From IMG/VR virus record IMGVR_UViG_3300037049_000148, positions 1-61,365 of that record: a stretch of DNA of 61,365 nt; one strand, written 5' to 3'. This DNA is from a virus. The position numbers and the translations under genes are program-made. This document shows positions 4,067 through 56,889 of the stretch, piece after piece (positions within the stretch are counted from its first letter, which is position 1; each line of letters opens with the position of its first letter). The notes under the pieces are model-generated. The model was not told the DNA's origin, searched no databases, and saw only the letters and a program-made list of their open reading frames with translations.

Positions 4067-4484
4067 TCCACGTTTTCTTGCTCTTCTTGAAGAGCTAAAG
4101 ACATCTGACCGCATCCCGCGATTGCTGGATGAAATCAAAGAGCTGCATATCAGGAAATCGGCTGGATACGCCGGCGCAGATAGCTCCGATGCTTTTGCGA
4201 ACTTTCGCGTCGCGGAAGTCTTCCACATACCGGCAGAGGTCGGCGTCCTGATCCGGATGAGCGACAAGTTTGTCCGCGCAGGAAATCTGATCACCAACCC
4301 GAATAACGACCTGGTTGGCGAGAGCATTCAGGATACATTGATGGATCTGGCTTCCTATGCGCTGATCTGCCTGTGCCTGGTCGAAGAAGCAATGACGTTT
4401 GGATATAAAATCCGCACGTTCCTGGCTGGAATACAGCAGAGTGTTTACAAAACTATTCACCCCAAGGGTGAAGGAGAGCAATGA
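4056..4484 (+). CDS. Nmad1/DUF1599-like, MazG-related helical protein
   Basis: About 142 residues. The pattern HIRKSAGY...NFR...IRMSDKFVRAGNL...GESIQDTLMDLASYA matches the Nmad1/DUF1599 group, an all-alpha MazG-like fold linked to phage nucleotide or DNA modification. ATG 4056 is used, but TTG 4047 has the better-spaced AGGA and would add three residues. Either start overlaps the Lar-like gene. No partner modification enzyme is recognisable nearby, so a nucleotide-pool role is only an inference. Confidence 0.75.
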   Translation: MAANPRFLALLEELKTSDRIPRLLDEIKELHIRKSAGYAGADSSDAFANFRVAEVFHIPAEVGVLIRMSDKFVRAGNLITNPNNDLVGESIQDTLMDLASYALICLCLVEEAMTFGYKIRTFLAGIQQSVYKTIHPKGEGEQ

Positions 4485-4900
4485 AGCATAACATTGTGAG
4501 AATAGAGATCGAGACCGTCAAGCCAGGGACGGTTGTGCGCGGCAAGATGATCAACGTCTTTTTGAAGCCTCCGCCAAGATATTGTTGGTTCCCACGTCTG
4601 CCGGTTCGCACCGTTTACGATACCGGGCTTGTGCGTTTTGATGGAGGCGGCCACTTCCTCCGCTTCGATGCCCTTGGGCTCGAAGCGGACGGCATCACTG
4701 CCGGCGATGTGGAGTTCCTGATGACCACCGTTGGCGCCGATATGCTGTTCAGGAACGATCTGCAAATGTTGGTGGGGCGGGCAGAGAGCAGCCCGGAGGT
4801 GTTCAGGGATCGTCCGGTGTGGGTCGGAATGGCTCTTTATGAAGTCGAGCGAGACGCATCGGTAAAGTTTACCAAGTGGCTGGATCTGGAAGCAATATAG
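4481..4900 (+). CDS. Hypothetical phage protein
   Basis: 139 residues, starting in an ATGA overlap with the preceding stop and with AAGGAG upstream. Beta-rich, no signal peptide or TM segment. No family recognised. Last gene of the GC-richer replication run before base composition drops at about 4900. Confidence 0.75.
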   Translation: MKHNIVRIEIETVKPGTVVRGKMINVFLKPPPRYCWFPRLPVRTVYDTGLVRFDGGGHFLRFDALGLEADGITAGDVEFLMTTVGADMLFRNDLQMLVGRAESSPEVFRDRPVWVGMALYEVERDASVKFTKWLDLEAI

Positions 4901-4922
4901 CTTTTCGATACAAATAATATAC

Positions 4923-4951
4923 TTGACGCACCAGAGCGTTTGTGCTAGAAT
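4923..4951 (+). promoter_or_regulatory. Sigma-70-type promoter for the transposase fragment, probably leaderless
   Basis: TTGACG (4923-4928), 17-nt spacer, TAGAAT (4946-4951). The ATG at 4958 lies six bases after the -10, so the transcript should start at or next to the start codon. Confidence 0.7.
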
Positions 4952-4970
4952 GTTGGTATGAAAACCAACA
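4951..4970. repeat. 7-bp perfect inverted repeat enclosing the start codon
   Basis: TGTTGGT-ATGAAA-ACCAACA: the ATG sits in the loop. It overlaps the -10 edge and the predicted start point, so it could be an operator or an RNA hairpin masking translation. Confidence 0.6.
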
Positions 4971-5467: not shown

Positions 5468-6655
5468 GTGCCAAAAATTAATCCAGAGATACTCATTTGG
5501 GCTCGCAAAACGGCAAGTCTCACCCTGGATGAAGCCGCGAAGAAGTTATCCATTCTGGATACGCAAAACTCATCCGCGGTTGACCGTCTTGCAGAATTTG
5601 AGACAACGGGGATATTGAGTCGTTCCTTGTTGGTAAAGATGTCAAAGGCTTACCGAAGGCCGCTCTTGACATTCTATATGGCCGCGCCTCCTCGAAAGGG
5701 AAATCGGGGTCAAGACTTCCGTACACTTCCCAAAGATTATTCAGCGTCAGAAAATGCTTTCCTCGATGTTCTCATTCGTAATGTAGTAGCGCGACAGAGT
5801 ATAGTTCACTCGGCGTTGGAGGAGGACGAAGAGGTTGAGCCGCTTCAATTCATTGGATCATCCAAGATGTCCGATGGGGTAGCGGCTGTTTTAGCATCTA
5901 TCAGAAAGACGCTCCAAATAAATCAAGGTGAGTTTTATGCTCAGTCTAGTCCGGATGATGCTTTTGCTTTGTTGCGCGAGTCCGCTGAGGCAAAAGGAGT
6001 TTTTGTTTTACTAATTGGAGACCTCGGAAGCTGGCATACCAAAATTGATACTGAAATATTTCGGGGCTTCGCTTTAGTAGATTCGATAGCACCATTCATT
6101 ATTATAAACGACCAGGATAGTCATTCTGCGTGGTCATTCACGCTCCTCCATGAACTTACTCACCTATGGCTTGGTCAAACTGGGGTAAGTAACTCAATAA
6201 TAACTAATCCAATTGAGAAATTTTGCAACGATGTCGCAGGAGAGTTTCTCTTATCCGCAGATAAACTTGCCTCCCTAACCGTGAACGACGATACTCCATT
6301 TGATGAGGCTTTAGAAGAGATAACTGAATTTGCCACCGAGCGAAATCTTAGTAGTTCAATGGTTGCTTATAAACTGTATCGCGCGGGCGCGATACAGGAA
6401 GCAACTTGGAATAATCTGAGTAAAGCATTTCGGGATATGTGGCGTCAAAACCGAGTCAAGCATCGCGAGGCGCCTAAATCAGAAGGAGGGCCAGATTACT
6501 ACGTGATTCGAAAACAACGAATTGGAAAAGCCTTGATTCAACTCGTTGATCGAATGATGCTTGATGGTTCTCTCAGCACGTCAAAGGCAGGTAAGGTCTT
6601 GGGGGTCAAGGCAAAAAATGTAGGATACCTAATTGAAACGGCGCGTTCGGACTAG
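5468..6655 (+). CDS. HTH plus ImmA/IrrE-type metallopeptidase, toxin-antitoxin regulator
   Basis: 395 residues with a GTG start at 5468 after AGAGGTAG. The N-terminal 70 residues look like an Xre-type HTH region. A zinc-protease motif LLHELTHLWLG (HExxH, about 228-232) with a downstream helical domain follows. This is the COG2856-type protein commonly found directly upstream of DUF4411 PIN toxins, where it is taken to be the antitoxin. The next gene starts 9 nt later, giving a two-gene operon. ImmA proteins elsewhere cleave phage-type repressors, so a role in lysogeny control is an alternative. Confidence 0.88.
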   Translation: MPKINPEILIWARKTASLTLDEAAKKLSILDTQNSSAVDRLAEFETTGILSRSLLVKMSKAYRRPLLTFYMAAPPRKGNRGQDFRTLPKDYSASENAFLDVLIRNVVARQSIVHSALEEDEEVEPLQFIGSSKMSDGVAAVLASIRKTLQINQGEFYAQSSPDDAFALLRESAEAKGVFVLLIGDLGSWHTKIDTEIFRGFALVDSIAPFIIINDQDSHSAWSFTLLHELTHLWLGQTGVSNSIITNPIEKFCNDVAGEFLLSADKLASLTVNDDTPFDEALEEITEFATERNLSSSMVAYKLYRAGAIQEATWNNLSKAFRDMWRQNRVKHREAPKSEGGPDYYVIRKQRIGKALIQLVDRMMLDGSLSTSKAGKVLGVKAKNVGYLIETARSD

Positions 6656-6664
6656 GAGGGTATT

Positions 6665-7198
6665 TTGATTTATTTGCTTGATGCCAACGCTCTGATAGAT
6701 GCAAATCGTGATTATTATCCTATTGATCGCGTCCCAGAATTTTGGGAATGGCTTGTAGACGCAGGAACAAGGGGGCTTGTCAAAATACCTATCGAAATAT
6801 ATGAGGAAATTAGAGATGGACATGTCAAACCGGATAAGGAGACCGGCAGGATAGACTTGCTTACAAGGTGGGCAAAAGAATCCAGTGTTAGCGACGCTCT
6901 GTTGCTCAAAGAGGATGTAAACGAATCTCTTGTATCGCGCGTAACAAATGAGGGCTACGCACCCGACCTAACTGATGATGAATTAGAAGAGATAGGGCGC
7001 GATCCCTTCTTGGTAGCTTATGCTCTCATTAATCCAAGAGAACGATGCGTTGTAACCACAGAAGTATCCAAACCCAAAAAGCAAAGAGCAAATCGCAAAC
7101 TGCCCGATGTTTGCAGTAGTTTTGGAGTTATATCGTGCACTGTCTACGCATTTACAAAAGCACTGGATTTTAAGACCAATTGGAATCATGATAGGTAG
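6665..7198 (+). CDS. DUF4411 PIN-domain ribonuclease toxin
   Basis: 177 residues starting at TTG 6665 with a strong AGGAGGG four bases upstream. The opening IYLLDANALIDANRDYY carries the first PIN Asp. Later acidic positions (about E51, D101-D119) and the CVVTTEV strand fit the DUF4411 PIN family. Expected activity: metal-dependent RNA cleavage, held in check by the upstream HTH-ImmA protein. On a prophage it could stabilise the lysogen or act against other phages. Confidence 0.85.
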   Translation: MIYLLDANALIDANRDYYPIDRVPEFWEWLVDAGTRGLVKIPIEIYEEIRDGHVKPDKETGRIDLLTRWAKESSVSDALLLKEDVNESLVSRVTNEGYAPDLTDDELEEIGRDPFLVAYALINPRERCVVTTEVSKPKKQRANRKLPDVCSSFGVISCTVYAFTKALDFKTNWNHDR

Positions 7199-37724: not shown

Positions 37725-39398
37725 ATGTACCCGATGCAAGTCACAGGCAGTTTGGTGGATGATGTCCACATTGGCGAAACTCCAATCGCCATTCTTCAAG
37801 CCAACAATTTCCTCAAGTGTGGAAACGATCCGTTGGTGTATTTCAGTGTGATTACCAAGACGTTGACTGATGCCGGTGTCACAAAGACGGTATGGGCTTC
37901 CACGGCCCGTCAGTTGCTCGGCAAGGCAGTCCTCGCTCTGGTCAATGCGGCCAGCCTGGAGATGGATCAGGCGGCAGCAGAGCGCAAGAAGGGGAATACC
38001 AAAGCGACCAAGCCGGCGGATCTGTATCGCAAATATTCGGCGGCTTTGCGCGCAGCAGCCGGATTGAAAGTGTCCAGCTCGCTCCTGGCAACCGAGACGC
38101 TCAGAGAGCTGTATCTGGAACAGACATTGGGGGACGGCGATCTCGAAACCGCCGATTACATAGACGCATACACTGGCGAGACCGAATTGACCTTCGAGCA
38201 ATTGATTGCCAGTCTACCAGAGCGCCATCCGATCAATAGCCGTGACGAAGGCGAGTTGAAGCTCCTGCAAATCATCTTCATGCCTGGAAAGGATGATGGA
38301 GATGGATTTGACGGCGTCGCCCCGATCATTTCCACTCCAGGCACGGAACTGGAGCGGCAGGCTGAACAATGCCGTGAACATCTCGGCTGGGATGACAATA
38401 CCGTCAAGGCTTTCCTGGCGGCCAACCGGCAGTTCATTGGCGGCGAAGATGAAGAAGAGCCGGGAGAAGACCGCGGCTTCGTTCCCGCAACCTTGCAAGA
38501 GCGCGAACTGGTCATTGATCGGCCAGCGTACTATCAAGCCATGAAACTAGTGGCAGCCTTCAACAAGCGTCGCAGTGAAATCTTCGAGCGCATGAAGATC
38601 CTGAAAATCAACCAGCAGAACTGGTACAAGGAATTCCGTATTGCGCTGACTGCCAGCGATGAATACACGGATTTGCTGAATGAAATCGAGCGCCTGGAAG
38701 CGGTGGACATCACAACGGCGGCAGCCGTGGCGCTCCTGGTCGCGACCACAGGATCATTGGAAGAAACCGGTGAAGATGTGATCGCGCAGGATGGGTACGG
38801 TTTGATCGCATCTGATTTCCGCCCAGGGCTGATCCAGTACATCGAAGCCTGGCAGGATGACCTGGTCGAGCTGATCAACGACTCCAGTCCGAACGGCGTG
38901 TTTCCGACAACGGAAAGCGACATTGAGCGTTACGATCAAGTAACGCTTCGGATGCTGGCGGAGAAAATGCCGGAGTATCACGTCAACCCAATGCAGACGC
39001 GCTCGTGGAATATGGCGTATTTGCAGGCGCTGGCGAACGGCGCGACATTCCAGGAAGCCGATGAGAGCGCATGGGCAGCCTGGCGCTTCGCAATGTCTTC
39101 GGAAGCAGCGGATGCTTACAACAAGGAATATCTGCGCACGAATGATCGCAAGCAAGCCATGCGCGCATTCTGGCAGAAGGCTCCGTTGTGCGTTCCTCGT
39201 CCGCAGGAACACATCAAAGCCATTCGTGGGGATAAGATGGGTTTGGTGCTGGTCGAGAAGGAACGCCGCATTGACTGGTGGGTCGCCACACGCAAGGCAA
39301 AGAACAACGAGTTGGCCTTGACCGAAGAGACCAAGACCAGGCTCAAGGCGGTTCTGGCGAACATTCCGCAAGCCAAAGAATTCCTGGCAGTCCTGTAA
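37725..39398 (+). CDS. Large early protein of unknown function
   Basis: 557 residues, ATG with AAAGGAG upstream, isolated between two strong terminators. Helical and acidic, with a poly-acidic stretch (GGEDEEEPGEDRG) near residue 245 and several long amphipathic helices. No ATP-binding, nuclease or HTH motif recognised. Its size and central place among replication genes suggest a core early function. Contains an exact dispersed palindrome at 38901, encoding FPTTE. Confidence 0.75.
   Translation: MYPMQVTGSLVDDVHIGETPIAILQANNFLKCGNDPLVYFSVITKTLTDAGVTKTVWASTARQLLGKAVLALVNAASLEMDQAAAERKKGNTKATKPADLYRKYSAALRAAAGLKVSSSLLATETLRELYLEQTLGDGDLETADYIDAYTGETELTFEQLIASLPERHPINSRDEGELKLLQIIFMPGKDDGDGFDGVAPIISTPGTELERQAEQCREHLGWDDNTVKAFLAANRQFIGGEDEEEPGEDRGFVPATLQERELVIDRPAYYQAMKLVAAFNKRRSEIFERMKILKINQQNWYKEFRIALTASDEYTDLLNEIERLEAVDITTAAAVALLVATTGSLEETGEDVIAQDGYGLIASDFRPGLIQYIEAWQDDLVELINDSSPNGVFPTTESDIERYDQVTLRMLAEKMPEYHVNPMQTRSWNMAYLQALANGATFQEADESAWAAWRFAMSSEAADAYNKEYLRTNDRKQAMRAFWQKAPLCVPRPQEHIKAIRGDKMGLVLVEKERRIDWWVATRKAKNNELALTEETKTRLKAVLANIPQAKEFLAVL
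38901..38916. repeat. Dispersed palindrome, exact copy
   Basis: TTTCCG-ACAA-CGGAAA in the 37725 gene. Confidence 0.85.
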
Positions 39399-39401
39399 TA
39401 C

Positions 39402-39438
39402 AAAAGGAGTAGGTGCGCAAGCACTTACTCCTTTTTTT
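39402..39438 (+). terminator. Strong rho-independent terminator
   Basis: AAAAGGAGTAGGTGC, GCAA loop, GCACTTACTCCTTTT, then more T. Marks the left edge of the second AT-rich island. Confidence 0.9.
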
Positions 39439-39452
39439 TGTGTGCCTCAAGG

Positions 39453-39480
39453 AACGCCACATGCCTGACGGCACTATTTT
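39453..39480 (+). ncRNA. Divergent leader-element-like hairpin
   Basis: CCACATGCCTGACGGCACTATTTTTGG carries GCC-TGAC-GGC and a short outer CCA/TGG. Weak copy of the recurring element, with no nearby plus-strand start codon. Confidence 0.3.
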
Positions 39481-39499
39481 TGGTAACTATAAATTCTTA

Positions 39500-39733
39500 C
39501 TATATCAAATCTTCTGGTTTGTAGACCGCGGGATGTTTGATCTTCTTGCGTCTTTTATTTTCTTCTTTCATAGTGTAATTCTCCAGTTTTTTCCATTCAA
39601 GAGTTGATTCAAAGTCTTCAACTCTTAATCCTGCAATGGGGTGCTTAGATTTTATAATATCTTTGTTTGCTTTGAATAAAAGATGTACAAACTCACCACA
39701 ATAATATTTAGGGTAACTATATACCTGACGCAT
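39500..39733 (-). CDS. Small hypothetical protein
   Basis: 77 residues, basic C-terminal half (KEENKRRKKIKHPAVYKPEDL). ATG at 39733 with a weak AAGAAA upstream. The amino-acid composition looks natural and the AT-rich codon use fits the island. No family recognised. Divergent from the protease gene. Confidence 0.45.
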   Translation of the reverse strand: MRQVYSYPKYYCGEFVHLLFKANKDIIKSKHPIAGLRVEDFESTLEWKKLENYTMKEENKRRKKIKHPAVYKPEDLI

Positions 39734-39766
39734 GAAAGCAATTTCTTCGCATAGCGGGGGGGTAAA

Positions 39767-40597
39767 ATGACATGTAAAAATCTGTGCCTTGAAAACGTCA
39801 TTATGGCTAAAAATAATTTGTGTAATTTAATCAATGAATTTATTGATACAATATTGCACATGACAAATAAATTTCGGGTTGGAGATATTGTTTATGTATC
39901 AAGATCGAGGGCGAGACTTGATATAAATGCTCCATCAGCATTATATAGGTCTGAGATTGTTGAAATCAGAAATCGTTCTGCTAAGATCAAGCTTCTTGAA
40001 GATGTTTCTAGTTTTATACCAACATCTGCATTAGTAAAACGGCTGGGGATATTGGTTTTGAAAATCGGTGATTTTGAGAGTGAAGATAGTCTTCTTAATC
40101 CTCTAAGGGAATCTTTACGCCATTATTTTAGTTTATTGCTCTCAGAGGGAGAAGTCTTATATTGGGATGTTAGAAGTTTAGATGAACTAAGCCGATTTTG
40201 GAAGACGCAAAATAATCATAATGCTATAACTCATGTCATACTTGTTGGTCACGGAAAATCTAATTCGATAAAATTTGGAGATACATGGAAATTATCTAAA
40301 GAGATCAATGATATTTTGAATTTGGATGGAGTGTTTCCAAAACAATTTATATCTTTGTGCTGTGAAACTGGGATCGCTAACTTTGGCAAGATGTTTTCTC
40401 AACTTCCTGTTTGCGAGTCATTGATAGCTCCTTTTCAAAGTATACATGGATCAATAGCATCTCAATTCTGTCAAACTTATTTCAACTATTTATTGTTGCA
40501 AGGTAAAACTTCTGGAGTTTCTTTCAAAAAAGCACGAGATGCCACACCAAACGCTACAAGTTTTCGCAGATGGAAAAACGGAAAATTGATAAGTTAA
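39767..40597 (+). CDS. CHAT/caspase-like cysteine protease with SH3-like N-terminal domain
   Basis: 276 residues. The C-terminal half has a strand ending in VILVGHGKSNSIKFGD (His162) and ISLCCETGIANFGKMF (Cys198-199, ETG), then LIAPFQSIHGSIASQF and the helical FNYLLLQGKTSGVSFKKA. This is the His-Cys dyad order of CHAT/metacaspase-like peptidases (HG...ACETG). Residues 36-80 resemble a small KOW/SH3-like barrel (FRVGDIVYVSRSRA). CHAT proteases act in bacterial abortive defence. Here it sits in an AT-rich phage island with no obvious sensor. ATG 39767 follows GGGGGG. Starts at 39803 or 39860 are possible. Confidence 0.7.
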   Translation: MTCKNLCLENVIMAKNNLCNLINEFIDTILHMTNKFRVGDIVYVSRSRARLDINAPSALYRSEIVEIRNRSAKIKLLEDVSSFIPTSALVKRLGILVLKIGDFESEDSLLNPLRESLRHYFSLLLSEGEVLYWDVRSLDELSRFWKTQNNHNAITHVILVGHGKSNSIKFGDTWKLSKEINDILNLDGVFPKQFISLCCETGIANFGKMFSQLPVCESLIAPFQSIHGSIASQFCQTYFNYLLLQGKTSGVSFKKARDATPNATSFRRWKNGKLIS

Positions 40598-40606
40598 AAT
40601 TGGGAG

Positions 40607-40831
40607 ATGAAATTAAAACTCACGGGTTTTCTAGTTGCCAATGTTGCTATGCCAATAATTGTTGGGGGATTTATGAATAGCCTTCTTACTTCTCAACATC
40701 TTGACCGCTATCTTGCAGAATTTGATTATCGTTATAATACTCGTGGCGAGAAAGACGGAATAAGAATGATAGAAGCAATCAAGAAATCGAATGGTAAAAG
40801 ATTGCAATATAAGGAATTGATTGCCGGATAG
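40607..40831 (+). pseudogene. IS1595-type transposase, C-terminal fragment
   Basis: 74 residues. From residue 24 the sequence NSLLTSQHLDRYLAEFDYRYNTR...GKRLQYKELI matches the conserved end of IS1595-family transposases (LDRYLxEFxFRYNxR and a terminal YKELI). The preceding 23 residues do not. The N-terminal counterpart is at 4958-5440, about 35 kb away. Together they lack most of the DDE domain. Confidence 0.75.
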
Positions 40832-40858
40832 CATCGGAAAGTAGCATTAAAAGAAGTG

Positions 40859-40930
40859 TGCCGCAGATGAGATTTGAACTCACATCCATAAACTTAGTAG
40901 GTTTCCGCTCCTCCCTTGAGCTACTGCGGC
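40859..40930 (-). tRNA. tRNA with ACU anticodon (identity uncertain)
   Basis: Minus strand folds as a canonical cloverleaf: acceptor GCCGCAG/CTGCGGC, D stem GCTC/GAGC, anticodon stem GAAAC/GTTTA (one mismatch at 27-43), loop CTACTAA, 5-nt variable region, T arm GTGAG-TTCAAAT-CTCAT. Anticodon ACU would read AGU (Ser), but there is no long variable arm, so the charging identity is doubtful. The CCA is not fully encoded (ACAC follows). Confidence 0.75.
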
Positions 40931-40960
40931 ACACTCATATTCTAGCACTAGGATAAAATT

Positions 40961-41128
40961 ATGGCAGAAACAAAGAAGAAAGTAAAAAAGAAGGTTGTCA
41001 AGAAAAGAAGTAGCAAATACAATAAAAAGATTTCTCTTTATGGCATGGATGAAAAAGATGTTTTGAAAGAGTTATTGAAATCGCCCCCTATTCCAAGCGG
41101 AGAGATCAAGGATAAAAACAAGGAATAA
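40961..41128 (+). CDS. Small lysine-rich protein
   Basis: 55 residues between the two tRNA-like genes. The first 23 residues are dominated by Lys and Arg (AETKKKVKKKVVKKRSSKY), then an acidic helix and a Pro-rich tail. Could bind nucleic acid. ATG preceded by AGGATAAAATT. No family. Confidence 0.5.
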   Translation: MAETKKKVKKKVVKKRSSKYNKKISLYGMDEKDVLKELLKSPPIPSGEIKDKNKE

Positions 41129-41132
41129 ATCT

Positions 41133-41270
41133 ATGAAAAGAATTGGTAGAGGAGTTGCGAGAAATGTGGCAAAAGCCAGCGTCAAAAACGATAATTGTAT
41201 GGTATTGATTGTTGTTATGATTTCGCTCTTATTATTGTTTGTTTGTATAGTAAATGCACTAGCAAGATAA
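41133..41270 (+). CDS. Small single-TM protein
   Basis: 45 residues: basic amphipathic N-terminus and a strong TM helix (CMVLIVVMISLLLLFVCIV). Starts 4 nt after the 40961 stop, with AAGGA (inside the previous gene end) as ribosome site. The pair may form a small operon. Confidence 0.55.
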   Translation: MKRIGRGVARNVAKASVKNDNCMVLIVVMISLLLLFVCIVNALAR

Positions 41271-41322
41271 TATTAAGCGAGTATCATCTAATAATAGAAT
41301 AAGACTTATCTTACAAGTATGC

Positions 41323-41406
41323 CGATGAAAGCCCGATTTGAACCATTGAAGGTTTTTCACCCTCAACAGATGCTCAGTCTATCCCATTAAGTCCATTCCT
41401 CTCATC
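41323..41406 (-). tRNA. tRNA-Leu-like gene (GAG), degenerate T arm
   Basis: Minus strand: acceptor GATGAGA/TTTCATC (one G-U), anticodon stem ATAGA/TCTGT with loop CTGAGCA (anticodon GAG), and a long class-II variable arm TGAGGG-N7-CCTTCA typical of tRNA-Leu. The TTCAAAT T loop is present but its stem pairs poorly, and the D arm is irregular. Functional tRNA, tRNA-like element or decaying gene. Confidence 0.45.
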
Positions 41407-41443
41407 TTTCCGATTTTATTTTAACAAGAAAGTTAATAACGAT

Positions 41444-41953
41444 TTAATAGCAAGTCCATTCCGCAGTATTTGCGGTTGCCATGTTGTCTTGATTATTTTC
41501 ATATCTTTCTATTATTGCGATTACTTTTATGTAACAGTTCTTGTTTAATAAGCCTTGATAGAGTTCGGAAAAATCCTCTCTTGTGAAATAAATATACCAC
41601 CTTTCCAAATATCCTCCGCTAGGTGTTATTGTTACACAGAAATATTTTGGTTCTATACTAGCGTCATATCCCCAATTGTAGTAATTGCATAATTCGCCTG
41701 TACCAGTCAATGCAAATTTTTTGTAAAGATTGTTTGGCATATTATACTGAACTTCTTTGGCGGTTAAGGTTACACCCTCTTTTTGCATCCATTCGTGCAA
41801 TCCGGAATCGGGATTGGCAGTTGCCAGTTCATTAATTTGTTGCTGGGCGGTTTGTAAAAATTCTATTTGAGATGGGGTTGGCTGTATTGGTGAACACCCC
41901 GACATAAGAATGATAACTATTATCCCGAAGAGTTTAACAAGGAAAGTCTTCAT
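41444..41953 (-). CDS. Lipoprotein, possible superinfection-exclusion or conversion protein
   Basis: 169 residues. N-terminus KTFLVKLFGIIVIILMSGCS with lipobox MSGC and Cys20 as the lipidated residue. The mature part has three or four further Cys and a beta-rich C-terminal half. AT-rich. Phage lipoproteins often block receptor use or DNA entry during lysogeny. Inferred from type and context only. Confidence 0.75.
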   Translation of the reverse strand: MKTFLVKLFGIIVIILMSGCSPIQPTPSQIEFLQTAQQQINELATANPDSGLHEWMQKEGVTLTAKEVQYNMPNNLYKKFALTGTGELCNYYNWGYDASIEPKYFCVTITPSGGYLERWYIYFTREDFSELYQGLLNKNCYIKVIAIIERYENNQDNMATANTAEWTCY

Positions 41954-42046
41954 TTTGATTCTCCTCTTGAATTATTCTAATCATTATAGTTTAAAAACCA
42001 TAAAAGGAAAAGGAAATATGATTCAACAATTAAATAACAAGGTAAA

Positions 42047-42802
42047 ATGGGGTCTATGGGAAAACTTAAGTTTACATGGACTCTTTTTTGGCAGGGCATT
42101 ATTGCTTTTTGTCTTGTGTTATTGGGGGAGTTGGTAAACGATATGCTTTTATCTCCTTCTGGCTACTGTGGGAGTAGCATAGTTCTTTGTCGAGTTGTTC
42201 AAGTAATCGTATTTATAATAATATTACTTGTTGCCGGTGTTTTGGCTTATATAATCTGGAAGTTAATGTCGAAGATTGCTAAACAATTTTCAAAATTTAA
42301 ATATTCATTTCAAAGAAAAAAAGAGGTGGATTTTTCCCCATATATTTATCGAGATGGAAATATTATTTATATGAAAATTAGTTGCCCTCAAAAATCATTT
42401 TTATATGCTGTTTGCAGTTATTCAGTTAAATATCTGAAGTCGAAAAGAGAAGATCATGAAATTAAAACAAAATCTGACTTGATTAACAAAATGATTTCTG
42501 ATGCAATGATTGGAGCAACCGGGAAGCAGTCGTCATGGTTTGATTATGATTCGATAAAAATTAAGAAAAATACCTTTGGGAGATTACATCTATTTGAAAT
42601 TGATCCAGACAAAGAAATATTTTGTTTATATAGAGATTCAGGAATGCCAAAAAGATTTCGAAACGATGAACTTTTTCCAAATTTAGAAGAAATTTCTTTT
42701 CAGCGTGGAGAATATGACTTTGAAATAACAATATCCGCGAGAGATTTTTTAGGTAGAGTTTTTATGCAACGATTTCCTTATCATATAATATATGAAGGAT
42801 AA
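42047..42802 (+). CDS. Two-TM membrane protein with beta-rich C-terminal domain
   Basis: 251 residues. TM helices at about 10-30 and 50-72, basic stop-transfer (KIAKQFSKFKYSFQRKKEV), then a soluble domain. Same overall plan as the proteins at 7571 and 42819. An overlapping ORF (42018-42137, 39 residues) in another frame has the better ribosome site AAGGAAATATG, so the true start is uncertain. AT-rich cargo, function unknown. Confidence 0.6.
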   Translation: MGSMGKLKFTWTLFWQGIIAFCLVLLGELVNDMLLSPSGYCGSSIVLCRVVQVIVFIIILLVAGVLAYIIWKLMSKIAKQFSKFKYSFQRKKEVDFSPYIYRDGNIIYMKISCPQKSFLYAVCSYSVKYLKSKREDHEIKTKSDLINKMISDAMIGATGKQSSWFDYDSIKIKKNTFGRLHLFEIDPDKEIFCLYRDSGMPKRFRNDELFPNLEEISFQRGEYDFEITISARDFLGRVFMQRFPYHIIYEG

Positions 42803-42818
42803 AAATGACAGCCCATTT

Positions 42819-43565
42819 CTACACAAAAAAATTAGCCCATGCGTCAAGTATATAGTTACCATATTTAGATATATCGTTGCCAGAAATTGTCCCAGAAACA
42901 CCAATAATCAATTCGTAATCGGCTTTCCATATATCGAAGTCGCCAATGCCTTTTGTAGAAGTTTCGTCATAAGGAAAAAACTCTCTGCTGTAAAGTCCTG
43001 TTGCAATATAGAATTTTGTAATATGTCCTATAAAACCGTCCATGCCAGCATAGCTTGCTAACAAAATATCTATATCCTTGTTTGGAGGAATTCTTGTTAT
43101 CTCGCTCAAAAATGGGCGCTCCTCTGTTGGCAAATCTTTTAGATATACTGGCCCAATAGCAGTAATTCTTATCGGTTGAATGATCAGATTTTCTAAATAA
43201 TCATTGTCAGACTTGTTTGTTATCCTTAAACTGATACATCCTGAATTATGTCTAATATCACCATCAAGAATTTCCTCCACCCTGATTTTAGAAATGAGAT
43301 TTTTTGACCACAGTCTAATTGCGACGCTACCAAAACCAATTAAAGGAATTGTGAAAACAAATGCTATCAATATCATATTAACGATAGAACAAATTGCGAA
43401 TTGAGGAGGGCAATGAACAATATTCATGTATCCCCCAAGAGTTGCTATGATGGTTGCGAGAATCCCTATTAATAAACTTCCCACCACAATCACCAAATAG
43501 GATTGGAATATTCTTTTCTCCATGCCATCTATTTTACTCCCCATGCTATACAAAAAATGGGCCAT
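42819..43565 (-). CDS. Two-TM membrane protein with immunoglobulin-like beta domain
   Basis: About 248 residues (start at 43565, 43541 or 43523). TM helices at about 22-47 and 60-85, then beta-rich (CISLRITNKSDNDYLENLIIQPI). Convergent with the 42047 gene. Resembles 2TM-beta proteins. No catalytic residues visible. AT-rich. 43566-43690 upstream of it holds no recognisable gene. Confidence 0.65.
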   Translation of the reverse strand: MAHFLYSMGSKIDGMEKRIFQSYLVIVVGSLLIGILATIIATLGGYMNIVHCPPQFAICSIVNMILIAFVFTIPLIGFGSVAIRLWSKNLISKIRVEEILDGDIRHNSGCISLRITNKSDNDYLENLIIQPIRITAIGPVYLKDLPTEERPFLSEITRIPPNKDIDILLASYAGMDGFIGHITKFYIATGLYSREFFPYDETSTKGIGDFDIWKADYELIIGVSGTISGNDISKYGNYILDAWANFFV

Positions 43566-43696
43566 ACGTCAATTACACGATACTTTATATTTTGCGCATC
43601 GTGCAGGTGCCATTCGGCGCTATTCGGCCAATTTTCGACCGCCCACCGTGTTTGCCGACGGCGCGCTGTTGGACAATATTTGAACCCCCAACTCTA

Positions 43697-43725
43697 TTGA
43701 CAGGCTGGAATAGTTGCGTTACATT
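43697..43725 (+). promoter_or_regulatory. Promoter with CTGGAATAGTT spacer element
   Basis: TTGACA (43697-43702), 17-nt spacer containing CTGGAATAGTT, TACATT (43720-43725). Drives the 43765-44661 gene cluster. Confidence 0.85.
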
Positions 43726-43764
43726 TGGAAATTATAACACCATAATCACAAAGGATAAGTCTCA

Positions 43765-44076
43765 ATGACACTTCCTGACATCGGAAACACCTTCGACGCC
43801 GTCATCATCCAGCCCTTGGAAAAGTTTCCGGTAGTCGGAGAAATCGTGAAGGGCAAGATCCTGGACCAGGTGGGCAGGTTTCAATTGCGGAACAGCGTGA
43901 TTCAAAAGCAACCGCGCTTCATGATCTCGGCGGAATTTGAAGCCGCGTTATGGGATCACATTCGAGTCATGCCGGCGCAATCGCTGCTGCGTCCACCGCT
44001 GGATACCAATGTATGGGAACAGCATCGCAGAACGAAAGCCGGCACACACTGGTACTACCGGAGACCATATGCTTGA
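43765..44076 (+). CDS. Hypothetical protein, first gene of macro-domain operon
   Basis: 103 residues, ATG with AAAGGA upstream, about 35 nt after the promoter start. Mixed alpha/beta (FDAVIIQPLEKFPVVGEIVKGKIL), basic C-terminus with HWYYRRPY. A degenerate dispersed palindrome covers codons 3-8. No family. Confidence 0.65.
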   Translation: MTLPDIGNTFDAVIIQPLEKFPVVGEIVKGKILDQVGRFQLRNSVIQKQPRFMISAEFEAALWDHIRVMPAQSLLRPPLDTNVWEQHRRTKAGTHWYYRRPYA

Positions 44077-44238: not shown

Positions 44239-44661
44239 ATGACCCATATCATCAATTCAGATCTCATTGGCGTCGAGCGCGGCGTTATCTGCCACCAAGT
44301 CAATTGCCGCAAAGTGGCCGGGGCAGGTGTGGCGCTCCAGATCAGGCGCAGATGGCCGCAGTGGTACGCAGAGTTTCAAAGGCGTTCGCCCAAACTTGGG
44401 CAAGTCGGATATCACCAGGTCGATGAGAACCTAACCATCGCTGACTTGTACGCTCAGGATGGCTTTGGCCGGGATAGGCAGTACACCGATTACGAAGCCT
44501 TGAGAGCATGCCTTCAGGAAGTCAGCCGCTATGCCGGCAAGAAACCTGTGTATCTTCCCTTTGGCATGAGCTCGGGATTGGCGGGCGGCGACTGGAACGA
44601 AGTGTTGCGCATGATCGAAACGGAATTACCGGAAGCGATCATTGTCCGGAAGACCAGATGA
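44239..44661 (+). CDS. Macro-domain protein (ADP-ribose binding)
   Basis: 140 residues. GVICHQVNCRKVAGAGVALQIRRRWP is the macro-domain entry (strand, N/Q, GAGVAxxI), followed by YAQDGFG and later VYLPFGMSSGLAGGDW, which fits the phosphate-binding loop of small macro domains. Expected to bind or hydrolyse ADP-ribose or its esters, perhaps countering ADP-ribosylation-based defence or processing RtcB/tRNA-repair by-products. 2-nt gap to the previous gene. Confidence 0.82.
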   Translation: MTHIINSDLIGVERGVICHQVNCRKVAGAGVALQIRRRWPQWYAEFQRRSPKLGQVGYHQVDENLTIADLYAQDGFGRDRQYTDYEALRACLQEVSRYAGKKPVYLPFGMSSGLAGGDWNEVLRMIETELPEAIIVRKTR

Positions 44662-46940: not shown

Positions 46941-47027
46941 TCCGCGGATCGTAACCGCGCTTTGCGTCCGTCGCCTGGCAAAGTGGCGAGACCGGCAGGC
47001 TCCTGCTCACCACGTAGTGGAGGCAAC

Positions 47028-47630
47028 ATGAACGTCACCAACGATCTCATTCCTCTGGACCAACTGCTTGCCTATCTGATCGACCCGCACCACTGCCCAT
47101 ATTGTGGAAATAAAAATATCCACTATGAGGAGCATCAATTGCCCAATTCGTATGTCCAATGCGGAAAATGCGGGCGGACTTTCGTGGAAGTGTGGAAACT
47201 GGTCGGCGTCAACGATCAACACGCCCCGACGAGTTTTGTCCAAACCCTGCTTTCCCTCGAAAGACTGCGCGGCAGTCAGATTACCTGGCGAGCGGCGTTA
47301 TCTCCCAGTGAAATGCTGGAATTCGCTGAAGGCAGCGCACTGCCCTTGCAGCGAGCCCTCGTTCGGGACATCGATGCTCTCATTCCGCCGGCATACTTTG
47401 GGCCGCGCTGCCTGAACAATGGCCGGCAGCATCATGTCTATGAAGTCGGCATGGAACTCAGCCGCGTTCTCTATGTGAATGTATATAAGAACTACATCGT
47501 CAATTGGAACAACCTGAGTAGCGTGCTGGCGAAGCAGCTAGACCAAATCGCAAAGCTATATAAAGCCGACGAACACGGAGTCGTCACGGACGACGCCGGC
47601 AAGTTTTCGTTCCGCTTCTGGTGGGATTAG
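47028..47630 (+). CDS. Zinc-ribbon protein
   Basis: 200 residues from ATG 47028 (GGAGG upstream). An upstream in-frame start at 46962 lies in the structured gap. CPYCGNKNIHYEE...VQCGKCGRTF (about 24-50) is a clear CxxC-CxxC ribbon. The remaining 150 residues are mixed alpha/beta and unrecognised. Possibly DNA- or RNA-binding. Confidence 0.7.
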   Translation: MNVTNDLIPLDQLLAYLIDPHHCPYCGNKNIHYEEHQLPNSYVQCGKCGRTFVEVWKLVGVNDQHAPTSFVQTLLSLERLRGSQITWRAALSPSEMLEFAEGSALPLQRALVRDIDALIPPAYFGPRCLNNGRQHHVYEVGMELSRVLYVNVYKNYIVNWNNLSSVLAKQLDQIAKLYKADEHGVVTDDAGKFSFRFWWD

Positions 47631-48726: not shown

Positions 48727-48755
48727 TTGACAACTATTCCAAACCCGCGTATACT
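48727..48755 (+). promoter_or_regulatory. Promoter of the Ubl gene
   Basis: TTGACA (48727-48732), 17-nt spacer, TATACT (48750-48755). The spacer holds AACTATTCCA, the reverse complement of the TGGAATAGTT element in three other promoters. Confidence 0.85.
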
Positions 48756-48780
48756 GCGGATATTCCAATTGGAGGCTCTA

Positions 48781-49146
48781 ATGACAGACCAGTTTGATCC
48801 AACTCTCGGCGATGAAACCAGCGACACCGCGGCTCCCGTGCCTGGGAACGATATGAATACGTCCGAGCCGGAGATGCCGGAAGACACCGGGGATGAGAAT
48901 TTCCTCGAAGACAATCACATCGATCCCGCAACCATCGTCACCATCCTGACCAGCGGGGCGGAACCGCGGTACATCCCGGTGAACGAACCCGCCGCGTTGC
49001 GCGATTTGGTTGTCCGCGCCAACCTGACCTACAGCGGCCAGGTGGATGCGTATGTGGACGGTAATTCGATCTCCTTCGAGACGTTGGTGTCTGGCGGGCA
49101 GACCGTCACGTTGATCGGCAACGTCAAAGGAGGCAGCGTAGCCTAG
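48781..49146 (+). CDS. Ubiquitin-like modifier (beta-grasp, C-terminal GG)
   Basis: 121 residues, ATG with TTGGAGG upstream. An acidic, disordered first 48 residues precede a beta-grasp core (TIVTILTSGAEPRYIPV...LRDLVVRANL...VDAYVDG...FETLVSGGQTVTLIGNVKGG). The diglycine at 117-118 is followed by SVA, so a protease must trim three residues to expose it. This is the layout of ubiquitin/SAMP/PRTRC-C type modifiers. Own strong promoter and terminator suggest high expression relative to the enzymes. Confidence 0.82.
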   Translation: MTDQFDPTLGDETSDTAAPVPGNDMNTSEPEMPEDTGDENFLEDNHIDPATIVTILTSGAEPRYIPVNEPAALRDLVVRANLTYSGQVDAYVDGNSISFETLVSGGQTVTLIGNVKGGSVA

Positions 49147-49164
49147 GGCAATCCCTTGACTACG

Positions 49165-49180
49165 TTTCCGATGCCAGAAA
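49165..49180. repeat. Dispersed palindrome, one mismatch
   Basis: TTTCCG-ATGC-CAGAAA, directly before the Ubl terminator. Confidence 0.6.
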
Positions 49181-49205
49181 CCCAGGCAGCTAACGCCTGG
49201 GTTTT
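49178..49205 (+). terminator. Terminator after the Ubl gene
   Basis: AAACCCAGGC, 7-nt loop, GCCTGGGTTTT. Separates the modifier gene from the enzyme genes. Confidence 0.85.
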
Positions 49206-49223
49206 CGTTCCCCGGAGGCTCTC

Positions 49224-49904
49224 ATGGCAATCAAAATCATCCAGCGTGCGGCGGTGGATCCCAAATTCATGGAATGCGTCCTGAACATCTACAGGGCGTT
49301 CATGATGAGGGAGAAGGAACGTGCAGCCGAGTATCCCGCCGGCGCCAAAGAATACATCAAGAAACGCGCACCGGCTCATGCCCGCATCCTGGCTATCACC
49401 ACAGTCGGTCACTCTCAAGGACGCGTCGGCGCGGAGTATGAACTCACCCGGCTGCGCGTGCTTCCTTACGAAAAGTTCATGACCGTCGCGCACAAAGGCG
49501 CCGACGGCAAATTAAAGAAATACCTGGTCGGCGTTACCAAGCCGGTTGTGATCAAAGACAACGGGAAAACCTATTTCCTGGGCCCGTATGCGATCTATGT
49601 TCCTGCGGATGCGTTTGACGCGCAGAACAGCGGATCGTTCCATTTCATCCCCACCAAGTTCCCGCAATCCAACTTGCGCCATCCGCACCATGTTGTAAAG
49701 AACAACCCGCAAGGCATGCACCCCCTGGACAAGCATGCTTCGACGTGCTGGGGCGGTTTTGGTCCGGCCATTCGCGTACTGCTGGATATTCCGGACATCC
49801 CGGAACTCTTCCGGCTTTTGCAGATGTATGTCAGCCGGTATGACGCAGGCTCTGTGTTGTCGTTCATTCGCAACCTCGATTTTCCCACAACGGAGGAAGC
49901 ATGA
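49224..49904 (+). CDS. E2-like ubiquitin-conjugating domain protein
   Basis: 226 residues, ATG with CGGAGG upstream. The segment FIPTKFPQSNLRHPHHVV (141-158) followed by STCWGGFGPAI (173-183) matches the bacterial E2/UBC-like core, with Cys175 as the expected thioester residue. The region before it (MTVAHKG...LVGVTKPVVI...GPYAIYVP) gives the E2 beta-sheet. It would receive the modifier from the E1-like protein (50584) and pass it to a target. No E3 is visible. Confidence 0.72.
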   Translation: MAIKIIQRAAVDPKFMECVLNIYRAFMMREKERAAEYPAGAKEYIKKRAPAHARILAITTVGHSQGRVGAEYELTRLRVLPYEKFMTVAHKGADGKLKKYLVGVTKPVVIKDNGKTYFLGPYAIYVPADAFDAQNSGSFHFIPTKFPQSNLRHPHHVVKNNPQGMHPLDKHASTCWGGFGPAIRVLLDIPDIPELFRLLQMYVSRYDAGSVLSFIRNLDFPTTEEA

Positions 49905-50587
49905 AGATCGTCCTTGACCCGCTGGTCATGCTGAAGCTGGAGACCTATGCCAGCCAGACCCGCAATGAATTCTCCGGCTTCGGCTTCGTGGATCTCGACC
50001 GTGAGCATCAGATCTTCCATGTATATGACGTGGTCATCCTGGACGTGGGCACCTATACATGGACCGAGATCCCATCCAGGAAGATCCTGGAGGTCATACA
50101 GCGTCCGGATGCCCGCAAGATGAAGTTATGGTTCCATCGGCATCCAATGGGAAACGGGATTCCCGGGATGCACAACTGGTCCGGCACGGACGACAACACC
50201 TGCCGCAGGGAGCCTCTTGGAAATTCCATGCCTGAACTGGTCGGCTGGTCCATTTCCATTGTCCGCACTCCACTGGGGTGGGTGGGTCGTTATGACACGT
50301 ATGGCCCAAATGGAGCCACAGCGCATTTGAACGTTGAACCGTCCTTCGCACTCGAGGCCTCGCGGAATATCTTCGAGCTGATTTCCGAGCATTCCAATCG
50401 CCGCGGTGGTCTGTCCGAAATGGAAAACGACTGGGACGATGATCCTGACGCATATCTCGGCCTGGACGGAGATGACGATCTCGACGAGGAAGAAGAAGGA
50501 AGCTGGGATGACGAGGACGAGGAAGACGTCGTTCAAACCTCGTTTCTCGGCGGCATGCTCAACAGGTTCCATGGAGGCAAACGATGA
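49901..50587 (+). CDS. JAB/MPN (JAMM) metalloprotease, deubiquitinase-like
   Basis: 228 residues, ATGA overlap with the E2-like gene. Glu23 (NEFSGFG), WFHRHPMG (His79, His81) and NWSGTDD (Ser94, Asp97) form the JAMM zinc site, with a slightly long spacing between HxH and S..D. A strongly acidic C-terminal tail (about 178-212) may hold the basic partner or target. Likely tasks: trimming SVA from the modifier or removing it from targets. Confidence 0.88.
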   Translation: MKIVLDPLVMLKLETYASQTRNEFSGFGFVDLDREHQIFHVYDVVILDVGTYTWTEIPSRKILEVIQRPDARKMKLWFHRHPMGNGIPGMHNWSGTDDNTCRREPLGNSMPELVGWSISIVRTPLGWVGRYDTYGPNGATAHLNVEPSFALEASRNIFELISEHSNRRGGLSEMENDWDDDPDAYLGLDGDDDLDEEEEGSWDDEDEEDVVQTSFLGGMLNRFHGGKR

Positions 50588-51246
50588 ACCATGTAAGACA
50601 CCAGAATATCTACAACATCCCTACGGGCTTTAGCGCCACGGTCATCGGCGCCGGAGGGATCGGCGCGATCACCGCGCTCATGCTGGCGAAGATGGGCGTT
50701 CGAGCAATTGCCATGTACGACGACGACACGGTCAGCGAAGAGAACATCGCAACGCAATTGCATAAAGTATCCGATATCGGAAAGCCAAAGGTGATGGCGC
50801 TTGGCGCGACCCTGATGGAATATTCCGATGATGTGTTCCCGTTCGGGCACGAAGAACGGATCGGTCCCGATAGCGAACTGCGTTCCACGCTGGTCATCTC
50901 CGCGGTCGACAGCATCCTCGCTCGCCAGCAAATCTGGATTGCGCTATGCAACCCCAATAGCCGCTGGTCTTTTTACCTTGATGCGCGAATGGGAGCTATG
51001 GAATATCAACATTTCCTGGTTCCCAATAAGGTTGAAAACGCCGATGCGTATAGTCATCATCTCATGAGCATAACGGATGATAGTGTCCCGGATGCTCCTT
51101 GCACCGAGAAGGCCACGTTCTTCACAGCAGCAATTGCCGCTGGTCATATAGGAAACACCGTCCGCGAGATCGCTCAAGGCGTTGCCAAGCCACACCGGTT
51201 GGTCCACAACATCCCCAATTACTGGCTCCAAACATTCTCCTTGTAA
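50584..51246 (+). CDS. E1-like (ThiF/MoeB) adenylating enzyme
   Basis: 220 residues, ATGA overlap with the JAB gene. Rossmann ATP site VIGAGGIGA (20-28), MYDDDTVSEENIATQ (44-58), and Cys173 in DAPCTEKATFF as the candidate thioester Cys. Short, like minimal MoeB/ThiF proteins, with no extra domains. Would adenylate the modifier C-terminus and hand it to the E2-like protein. Confidence 0.88.
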   Translation: MNHVRHQNIYNIPTGFSATVIGAGGIGAITALMLAKMGVRAIAMYDDDTVSEENIATQLHKVSDIGKPKVMALGATLMEYSDDVFPFGHEERIGPDSELRSTLVISAVDSILARQQIWIALCNPNSRWSFYLDARMGAMEYQHFLVPNKVENADAYSHHLMSITDDSVPDAPCTEKATFFTAAIAAGHIGNTVREIAQGVAKPHRLVHNIPNYWLQTFSL

Positions 51247-55507: not shown

Positions 55508-55682
55508 CGTGGCAAATGGCAGGGATTGGGTGGCAGCCATCAAGCTCCAGGCGTTGGGCTTCCCGGACATCCCGCATCAGATCAAGGTCATTCGCCTGTT
55601 GAACATGCGGCGCAGATTGCCGCACATCCGGCGGGTCCGGTCCCTGGAGCGGTCGGCGCGGCGTGCTCGCCGTTGTAATTAA
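55467..55682 (+). CDS. Small basic protein
   Basis: 71 residues, ribosome site overlapping a dispersed palindrome. C-terminus very Arg-rich (NMRRRLPHIRRVRSLERSARRARR), so probably nucleic-acid binding. Directly upstream of RtcB. Confidence 0.6.
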   Translation: MSAMKQLYDNLSIDVANGRDWVAAIKLQALGFPDIPHQIKVIRLLNMRRRLPHIRRVRSLERSARRARRCN

Positions 55683-55701
55683 TTTCCATTATGGAGGTAG
55701 C

Positions 55702-56889
55702 ATGAAACAGATCGCCGATAAGATTTTTCAGTTTGGGGAACATGATGACCAAACCATCGAACAGATCAACATGATCGCCAGTGATGAGCGCGTATATCGC
55801 GCGGTCCTGGCTGCTGACGGACACTTGGGATATTCGATGCCGATCGGCGGAGTGGCCGCCTACATGGGTGTGGTTTCGCCGTCGGGCGTGGGATATGACA
55901 TCGGTTGCGGAAATCTCGCAGTTCGTACCACCTTCAAAACCAACAATGTGGGTTATTGGAGCGACCTGGTATACGAGATTGCCCGCACCATTTCGTTTGG
56001 TATTGGACAGGTCAACAAGGAAATTGTCGAAAGCGCAATGGTATACAGCCACGATGCCTGGAATATTCCTGCGGTCAAGGAACTGCTTCCCATCGCTCAA
56101 GGCCAGCTTGGAACCGTCGGCGCCGGCAATCACTTCGTTGACATCCTGAAGGACGAACACGACTGGCTATGGGTGGGTGTTCACTTCGGTTCGCGCGGTT
56201 TTGGACATCACATTGCCCAGCACTACATCAAGGCCGGCGGTGGGAAAGACGGGATCATGCAGGCTCCCACGCTCTTGGATGTCAATTCGGAACTCGGCAA
56301 GGAATATATTACCGCCATGCAATTGGCGGGCTTATATGCCATGGCCGGGCGCACCTGGGTGGTGGAGCGTGTTTTGGAGATCATGGGCGCTCAAGCCATA
56401 GAGCGCGTTCACAATCATCACAACTTCGCCTGGAAGGAGAGACACGAAGGCCGGGACTTCTGGGTCATCCGCAAGGGCGCCACGCCGGCTTTCCCTGGAC
56501 AGCGAGGATTTATCGGCGGGTCCATGGGCGACATCTCCGCAATTGTGGAAGGCGTTGACACGGAGGCTTCCAGAACTGCGCTGTATTCCACGGTTCACGG
56601 AGCAGGGCGCCTCATGTCCCGCACCCAGGCTGCTGGCAAGAAGAAATGGGTCGGCGGGAAAATGGTTCGCACGGGAAAAGGTCAGATCTCCCGCGAAATG
56701 ATGAATGACATGCTGCTGGCGAAGAAAGTGATCCTGTATGGCGGCGACACAGATGAAGCCCCGCAGGTATATCGCCCGCTGGATAACGTCCTGAAAGCAC
56801 AGGGCGAGACCATCCGCATCCTCCATACTCTGGAGCCCATGGCAGTGCTGATGGCTCCGGCAGATGTGGAGGATCCCTTCAAGGACTAG
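55702..56889 (+). CDS. rtcB: RtcB-type RNA ligase
   Basis: 395 residues from ATG 55702 (GGAGG upstream). GYDIGCGN carries the metal Cys, GAGNHF and FGSRGFGHH supply His residues, and the C-terminal STVHGAGRLMSR is the guanylylated-His region of RtcB. Joins 2',3'-cyclic phosphate or 3'-phosphate RNA ends to 5'-OH. In a phage with tRNA genes this suggests repair of tRNAs cut by host anticodon nucleases. Confidence 0.93.
   Translation: MKQIADKIFQFGEHDDQTIEQINMIASDERVYRAVLAADGHLGYSMPIGGVAAYMGVVSPSGVGYDIGCGNLAVRTTFKTNNVGYWSDLVYEIARTISFGIGQVNKEIVESAMVYSHDAWNIPAVKELLPIAQGQLGTVGAGNHFVDILKDEHDWLWVGVHFGSRGFGHHIAQHYIKAGGGKDGIMQAPTLLDVNSELGKEYITAMQLAGLYAMAGRTWVVERVLEIMGAQAIERVHNHHNFAWKERHEGRDFWVIRKGATPAFPGQRGFIGGSMGDISAIVEGVDTEASRTALYSTVHGAGRLMSRTQAAGKKKWVGGKMVRTGKGQISREMMNDMLLAKKVILYGGDTDEAPQVYRPLDNVLKAQGETIRILHTLEPMAVLMAPADVEDPFKD

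Follow-up and report, generated by a model that had tools for sequence, protein, structure and literature searches.

The window, i.e. the whole stretch of DNA analysed here, is the 61,365-base IMG/VR virus record IMGVR_UViG_3300037049_000148. It contains the genes of a tailed phage: terminase, portal and capsid are encoded on the minus strand, an integrase is also present, and the plus strand carries genes for a DnaB helicase, a Sak4/RecA-like protein, a primase and a DNA ligase. Within positions 48727-51246 four plus-strand genes are found which encode, in this order, a ubiquitin-like protein (Ubl), an E2-like protein, a JAB protease and an E1-like enzyme (Table 1). The E2, JAB and E1 genes overlap by 4 bases each, and 77 bases lie between the Ubl and the E2 gene. 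An earlier note on this DNA, made from its letters alone, had read the four genes as a Ubl/E2/JAB/E1 cassette. This reading is borne out: all four ORFs are present on the plus strand, E1 being identified by Pfam and the other three by HMMs of their relatives.

Table 1. Genes and putative regulatory elements of the cassette in the window.
Feature	Position	Strand	Characteristics
Sigma-70-like promoter TTGACA-17-TATACT	48727..48755	+	11/12 consensus matches, best in the region; consensus match only
Ubl	48781..49146	+	121 aa; beta-grasp; acidic disordered N-terminus; C-terminus ...GNVK116-G117-G118-SVA
Terminator/attenuator-like hairpin between Ubl and E2	49178..49204	+	AAACCCAGGC-N7-GCCTGGGTTT, 10-bp perfect, then TCGTTCC
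E2-like (UBC-type) conjugating protein	49224..49904	+	226 aa; Cys175 in STC-WGG; candidate histidines H153-P-H155, H166-P
JAB/JAMM metalloprotease	49901..50587	+	228 aa; E23, H79-x-H81, S94-x2-D97; acidic C-terminal tail
Minimal E1/ThiF-fold adenylating enzyme	50584..51246	+	220 aa; G22xGxxG27, D46, K69, D109, R114, Cys173 in PCTEKAT

A stretch of 11,933 bases including the cassette is 100% identical to an Anaerolineae-binned contig from a fen (L084), which gives a weak hint at a Chloroflexota host of the phage, binning not being proof. Several further features of the window may be recorded here. Just upstream of the cassette region a zinc-ribbon-like protein is encoded (46962-47630) which weakly matches the restriction alleviation protein Lar, and a plus-strand ORF of 140 aa at 44239-44661 appears macro-domain-like by eye, with no Pfam match at 0.001. 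Positions 39000-44000 form a low-GC island (33-40% versus about 54% GC for the phage) within which a tRNA-Ser gene (anticodon act) is located at 40858-40930. An IrrE/M78 peptidase gene with a DUF4411 gene behind it (5468-7198) has the appearance of a toxin-antitoxin-like pair, and an RtcB RNA ligase is encoded at 55663-56889 on the replication side of the phage.

When the four proteins are searched singly against Pfam, E1 is the only one to be recognised at family level (ThiF, 5.2e-19), with Ubl, E2 and JAB staying below the family thresholds. On the basis of this ThiF match the assignment of E1 is certain. PHROGs and PADLOC yield nothing but generic E1 matches for the cassette. The catalytic-type Cys173 is present in all 69 of 69 full-length members of the E1 family, whose profile has its best PDB matches in UBA1 and UBA5 (2.6e-20), with ThiF behind at 2e-17; it also touches structures of BubCD and Cap2 (Citrobacter BubCD at 2.2e-12). 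The window E1 remains far below all ThiF and MoeB equivalog cut-offs, scoring 51 versus 159 bits and 46.6 versus 275 bits in the case of ThiF. In a tree of E1 sequences the cassette E1s constitute one group which stands apart from PRTRC-ThiF and MoeB-like sequences (support 93/86), verified PRTRC E1s forming a separate, long-branched group.

The remaining members were identified with HMMs built from their relatives, the window protein being left out in each case, and searched against 3,489 ORFs. JAB is recovered at E 3.5e-8. In an alignment of 19 JAB sequences E23, H79, H81, S94 and D97 are the only invariant columns; the HxH, Ser and Asp residues are present in all 67 of 67 family members, and the family profile matches the solved structures of Rpn11-like N11 (3.6e-10) and JAMM1 (1.9e-9). 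The Ubl is recovered at E 1.5e-8. The profile of its relatives reaches SAMP2 among the solved structures (1.8e-7), and ThiS is the closest Pfam family (6/10 members). The beta-grasp fold claimed for this protein in the earlier note is found in the AlphaFold2 model, whose core has a pLDDT of 80-92 and which retrieves TtuB, MoaD and Caldiarchaeum ubiquitin with a Foldseek probability of 1.00, SUMO also being matched. Many phages possess short Ubls of 68-120 aa in which KGG, KGA or a similar motif precedes the last few residues; in those of crAss-like phages 120-250 residues come after a KSG or KAG motif. A proposal that JAB trims the SVA tail of the Ubl appears plausible since relatives carry between 0 and about 250 residues beyond the conserved KxG motif; a variable tail behind the glycine motif, as many Ubls have it, is what would be expected from JAB processing. 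For the crAss-like phages processing is not certain because the Ubl there has a long conserved C-terminal domain.

The E2-like protein is the weakest link of the cassette. The HMM of its relatives recovers it with an E-value of 0.0012 for the whole protein and 0.0053 for the best domain, the alignment covering Cys175. The best PDB match of the relatives' profile, again built without the window sequence, is yeast Ubc4 (E 0.0047), with HPHvnssGkiCw aligned over HPNINANGNICL together with the following helix; eukaryotic Ubc4/UbcH5 are thus matched, and nearly all other PDB matches are UBC enzymes as well. UQ_con is the most frequent Pfam family among the E2 members (2/10, best 0.005). Singly these values are modest, yet they are mutually consistent. 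The AlphaFold2 model of the window E2, calculated from 10 sequences, has a mean pLDDT of 47, and its Foldseek matches are meaningless. As the structural model failed, the assignment rests on sequence profiles. An HP dipeptide and the cysteine are invariant in the aligned sets, while the window protein is devoid of the glycine which precedes the cysteine in most relatives. Regarding the motifs proposed earlier, Cys175 is retained, whereas either of two candidate sites may hold the active-site histidine: the HMM places the active-site HP on H166-P167 (HPL, six further residues and Cys175) and not on the RHPHH (152-156) named in the earlier note, but MAFFT aligns RHPHH. A motif of the form [HY][PS]x...CxG occurs in 55 of 75 ORFs upstream of JAB versus 11 of 685 other ORFs (Fisher p ~2e-55, the loci not being independent).

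Position 48727 belongs to the -35 box of a promoter close to consensus and is not a gene start; the Ubl start codon lies about 25 bases downstream of this promoter. The hairpin predicted behind the Ubl gene folds at -16.5 kcal/mol and is followed by a T-containing tail. Only some 20 bases, which hold the ribosome-binding site, separate it from the E2 start. Because a standard promoter does not fit into the space after the hairpin, partial read-through is the simplest reading of this arrangement in the window. Among 43 distinct loci, 28 have a predicted terminator-like hairpin in the 100 nt that follow the Ubl stop codon, where shuffles lead one to expect 1.8; the comparison with other plus-strand ORFs followed by a similar gap (24/115) gives p ~3e-7. 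A striking hairpin is also present between gp79 and gp78 of phiCrAss001. In a few loci the hairpin and the first E2 start codon called overlap, which makes the E2 gene starts there uncertain. Whereas the enzyme genes abut or overlap one another, a hairpin often lies between them and the modifier gene, which suggests that more modifier than enzyme would be made.

The earlier note had treated the cassette as a feature of one phage; it turned out to belong to a widespread phage family. An alignment-based scan of IMG/VR yielded 80 loci, many of which are close kin so that counts overstate independence, and a lone oddity is thereby ruled out. Using the window E1 as query, tblastn revealed 72 phage records from crAss-like and Flavobacterium phages in which Ubl, E2-like and JAB genes lie upstream of E1 as well. 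Scans of IMG/VR with the window E1 or E2 as single proteins, as well as tblastn of the window E2 in phages, revealed no close kin, and a search of plasmids for E1 gave no match. A JAMM-bearing ORF is situated immediately upstream of E1 in nearly every related locus, and comparison across the set shows conserved catalytic residues, i.e. the nucleotide loop and cysteine of E1, His and Cys of E2, the JAMM site and the C-terminal glycine of the Ubl. The order Ubl-E2-JAB-E1 recurs over the roughly 80 loci and is kept from the window to the cultured crAss-like gut phage phiCrAss001, which contains the whole cassette as gp79-gp76 (L149:831-5241, NC_049977.1); further cultured family members are DAC15 and the Flavobacterium phage FpV4 group.

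The cassette is not confined to phages since an Ignavibacteria MAG carries it on a contig (L085, L151:5385-7853) in a chromosomal region with no virion genes evident nearby. Its neighbours there, named by eye, are a primase-polymerase-like gene and tig-clpP-clpX; this copy is perhaps a small integrated element. In L004, the closest phage relative of the window, E1 (4284-4961) is present, but neither E2 nor JAB can be recognised in the record, which may be a fragment; therefore, E1-only use may exist. A lone E1 is also found in L086 and L087, the one in L086 (5941-6591), from a Bacteroidetes MAG, adjoining genes for ribosomal proteins. The lone E1s of L004 and L086 may represent a remnant or a separate use.

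As to its genomic location, the cassette of the window is directly followed by the primase gene, and a primase gene also follows in L004. Homologues of the crAss primase are present upstream, within about 3.7-6.5 kb, in some 52 loci. The neighbourhood includes an exonuclease in 50 loci and a UDG in 40, and Erf lies next to the cassette in L008. This neighbourhood of primase, UDG, exonuclease and recombinase genes points to activity in the replication phase rather than to the targets put forward in the earlier note, namely proteins of host defence or virion parts of competitors.

We consider it likely that the cassette constitutes a self-contained, JAB-reversible Ubl-conjugation pathway of the phage which is expressed with the replication genes and provides the modifier in excess. 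In such a pathway JAB would trim the Ubl precursor at the glycine, upon which E1 would adenylate this glycine and then load the Ubl on its Cys173. E2 would accept the Ubl on Cys175 and pass it to an amine of target proteins, presumably that of a lysine, from which JAB could take it off again. Expression would coincide with that of the phage replication genes, and attenuation of read-through by the hairpin would probably keep the Ubl in excess over the enzymes. The tagged proteins would most likely be phage replication proteins or host proteins, modified during takeover and replication.

The Ubl could, alternatively, act as a ThiS/MoaD-like sulfur carrier which, after trimming by JAB, is converted by E1 to a thiocarboxylate in order to thiolate a metabolite, tRNA or nucleotide. 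The proximity of its relatives to ThiS and the structural matches to TtuB and MoaD agree with this view, and the combination of JAB, a ThiS/MoaD-like protein and E1 is known from sulfur assimilation operons (PMC1779556). The same operon, however, encodes an E2-like protein in which HP and Cys are conserved and which matches Ubc4, E1 scores far under the ThiF equivalog cut-offs given above, and no thiamine or molybdopterin genes are seen around the cassette. Since a pure sulfur-carrier pathway would not need a Ubc4-like E2, we favour conjugation and regard the sulfur carrier as quite unlikely. An involvement of the Ubl and JAB in virion assembly, in the manner of TAPI/TAPK of lambda, is disfavoured and seems highly improbable to us: although Ubl and JAB pairs are known from phage tail operons (PMC1779556), TAPI/TAPK loci as described lack E1 and E2, the Pfam scan gave no match to Lambda_tail_I or NlpC/P60, and terminase, portal and capsid genes of the window are encoded by the other strand at a distance of well over 10 kb.

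Prophage defence or superinfection exclusion, in which the Ubl is conjugated in a Bil-like manner to virion parts of competing phages, would likewise involve conjugation. It is in line with the integrase of the window phage and with the existence of related four-part or E1-E2 antiphage systems, namely Bil and type II CBASS (PMC11354881, PMC10097602). Yet the PADLOC match is limited to the generic E1 part, and the cassette is embedded in replication genes instead of a cargo region; its counterparts in crAss-like and Flavobacterium phages are placed in a comparable way. We therefore consider defence unlikely. The preferred reading, conjugation during the replication phase, may be extended to the family as a whole: the cassette might represent an ancient phage-owned Ubl-conjugation system, shared by tailed phages of several hosts including crAss-like ones, which is a standard constituent of the replication module and, in infection, attaches its tag reversibly to replication or host proteins, a built-in transcriptional attenuator keeping the modifier above the enzymes. 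To this extended proposal we would assign an even chance of being correct.

The genes of the cassette are at present filed as "thiamine biosynthesis protein", "metalloprotease", "hypothetical" or PHROGs of unknown function; the annotation of E1 in phiCrAss001, for instance, reads thiamine biosynthesis protein ThiF, and that of JAB metalloprotease-domain protein. Given these labels the pathway has probably been overlooked. Searches of the literature on phage-borne Ubl cassettes and on crAss together with ubiquitin or ThiF revealed no earlier description, a mention elsewhere being possible, and the cassette is absent from the main texts of the phiCrAss001, crassvirus-structure and crAss-diversity papers. 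CBASS, Bil and Bub were described after the operon predictions of 2006. To our knowledge, those bacterial Ubl-conjugation systems whose role has been demonstrated serve to protect cells from phages. In the present case all four components are carried by viruses, cultured phages among them, and lie in the replication part of their genomes. As phiCrAss001 can be grown, the targets of a phage Ubl are directly testable. Minimal E1s of 220 aa and HPH-type E2s furthermore bear on the origin of the eukaryotic ubiquitin enzymes.

Iyer, Burroughs and Aravind predicted bacterial Ubl/E1/E2/JAB operons (classes 6a-6e) as well as the TAPI/TAPK pair of phage tails in 2006 (PMC1779556). The present cassette resembles these operons in uniting four functions in one operon, in a JAB adjoining E1 and in an E2 with a cysteine (plus the classical His in class 6a). 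In contrast, it is made up of four small individual genes, ordered Ubl-E2-JAB-E1, within phage replication modules, its E2 has HPH/HPx upstream of the CxG motif, and it fits no listed class. As in PRTRC (class 6d), JAB, E1 and accessory parts each have a gene of their own and are found on mobile elements, whereas the His of class 6d E2s lies after the Cys (PMC1779556). NCBIfam PRTRC models do not match the window Ubl, E2 or JAB at E up to 10, and the PRTRC_ThiF equivalog matches the window E1 weakly (46.5 bits; cut-off 144.75), compared with 220-334 bits on PRTRC A, B, F and ThiF for a Cupriavidus PRTRC locus. The earlier statement that this phage is without ParB or a CD-NTase holds for the window record, a tailed phage with an integrase in which searches detected neither a ParB_N nor a SMODS domain. 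By the missing ParB, the E1 score below the PRTRC_ThiF cut-off and the separate group in the tree, the cassette is not PRTRC, and the plasmid search for E1 lends no support to such a membership.

Type II CBASS (Cap2/Cap3) and Bub are alike in their bacterial E1/E2/JAB-type chemistry. The cassette differs from type II CBASS in that no CD-NTase was detected and in having separate E1 and E2 genes instead of a fused, Cap2-type E1-E2, and a dedicated free Ubl, and by these features is not a member. Bil (BilABCD) shares the four genes for Ubl, E2, JAB and E1 along with trimming of the Ubl by JAB. BilA, however, is a protein of two Ubl domains, the E1 BilD is pseudodimeric and the active site of BilB is CEHH (PMC11354881), whereas the Ubl of the cassette has a single beta-grasp domain, its E1 of 220 aa comprises one adenylation domain and its E2 shows HPx...C; neither a tandem beta-grasp Ubl nor a pseudodimeric E1 being present, it does not belong to Bil. 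Lambda TAPI/TAPK likewise represents a phage-borne Ubl with a JAB, but has no E1/E2, features an NlpC/P60 fusion and is part of the tail module; the replication-side location of the cassette and the Pfam result reported above separate the two. The nearest solved structures of Ubl and JAB, by profile or fold, are found in archaeal SAMP2/JAMM1 and the Caldiarchaeum Ub/Rpn11-like system, which are cellular, whereas the cassette is a phage operon.
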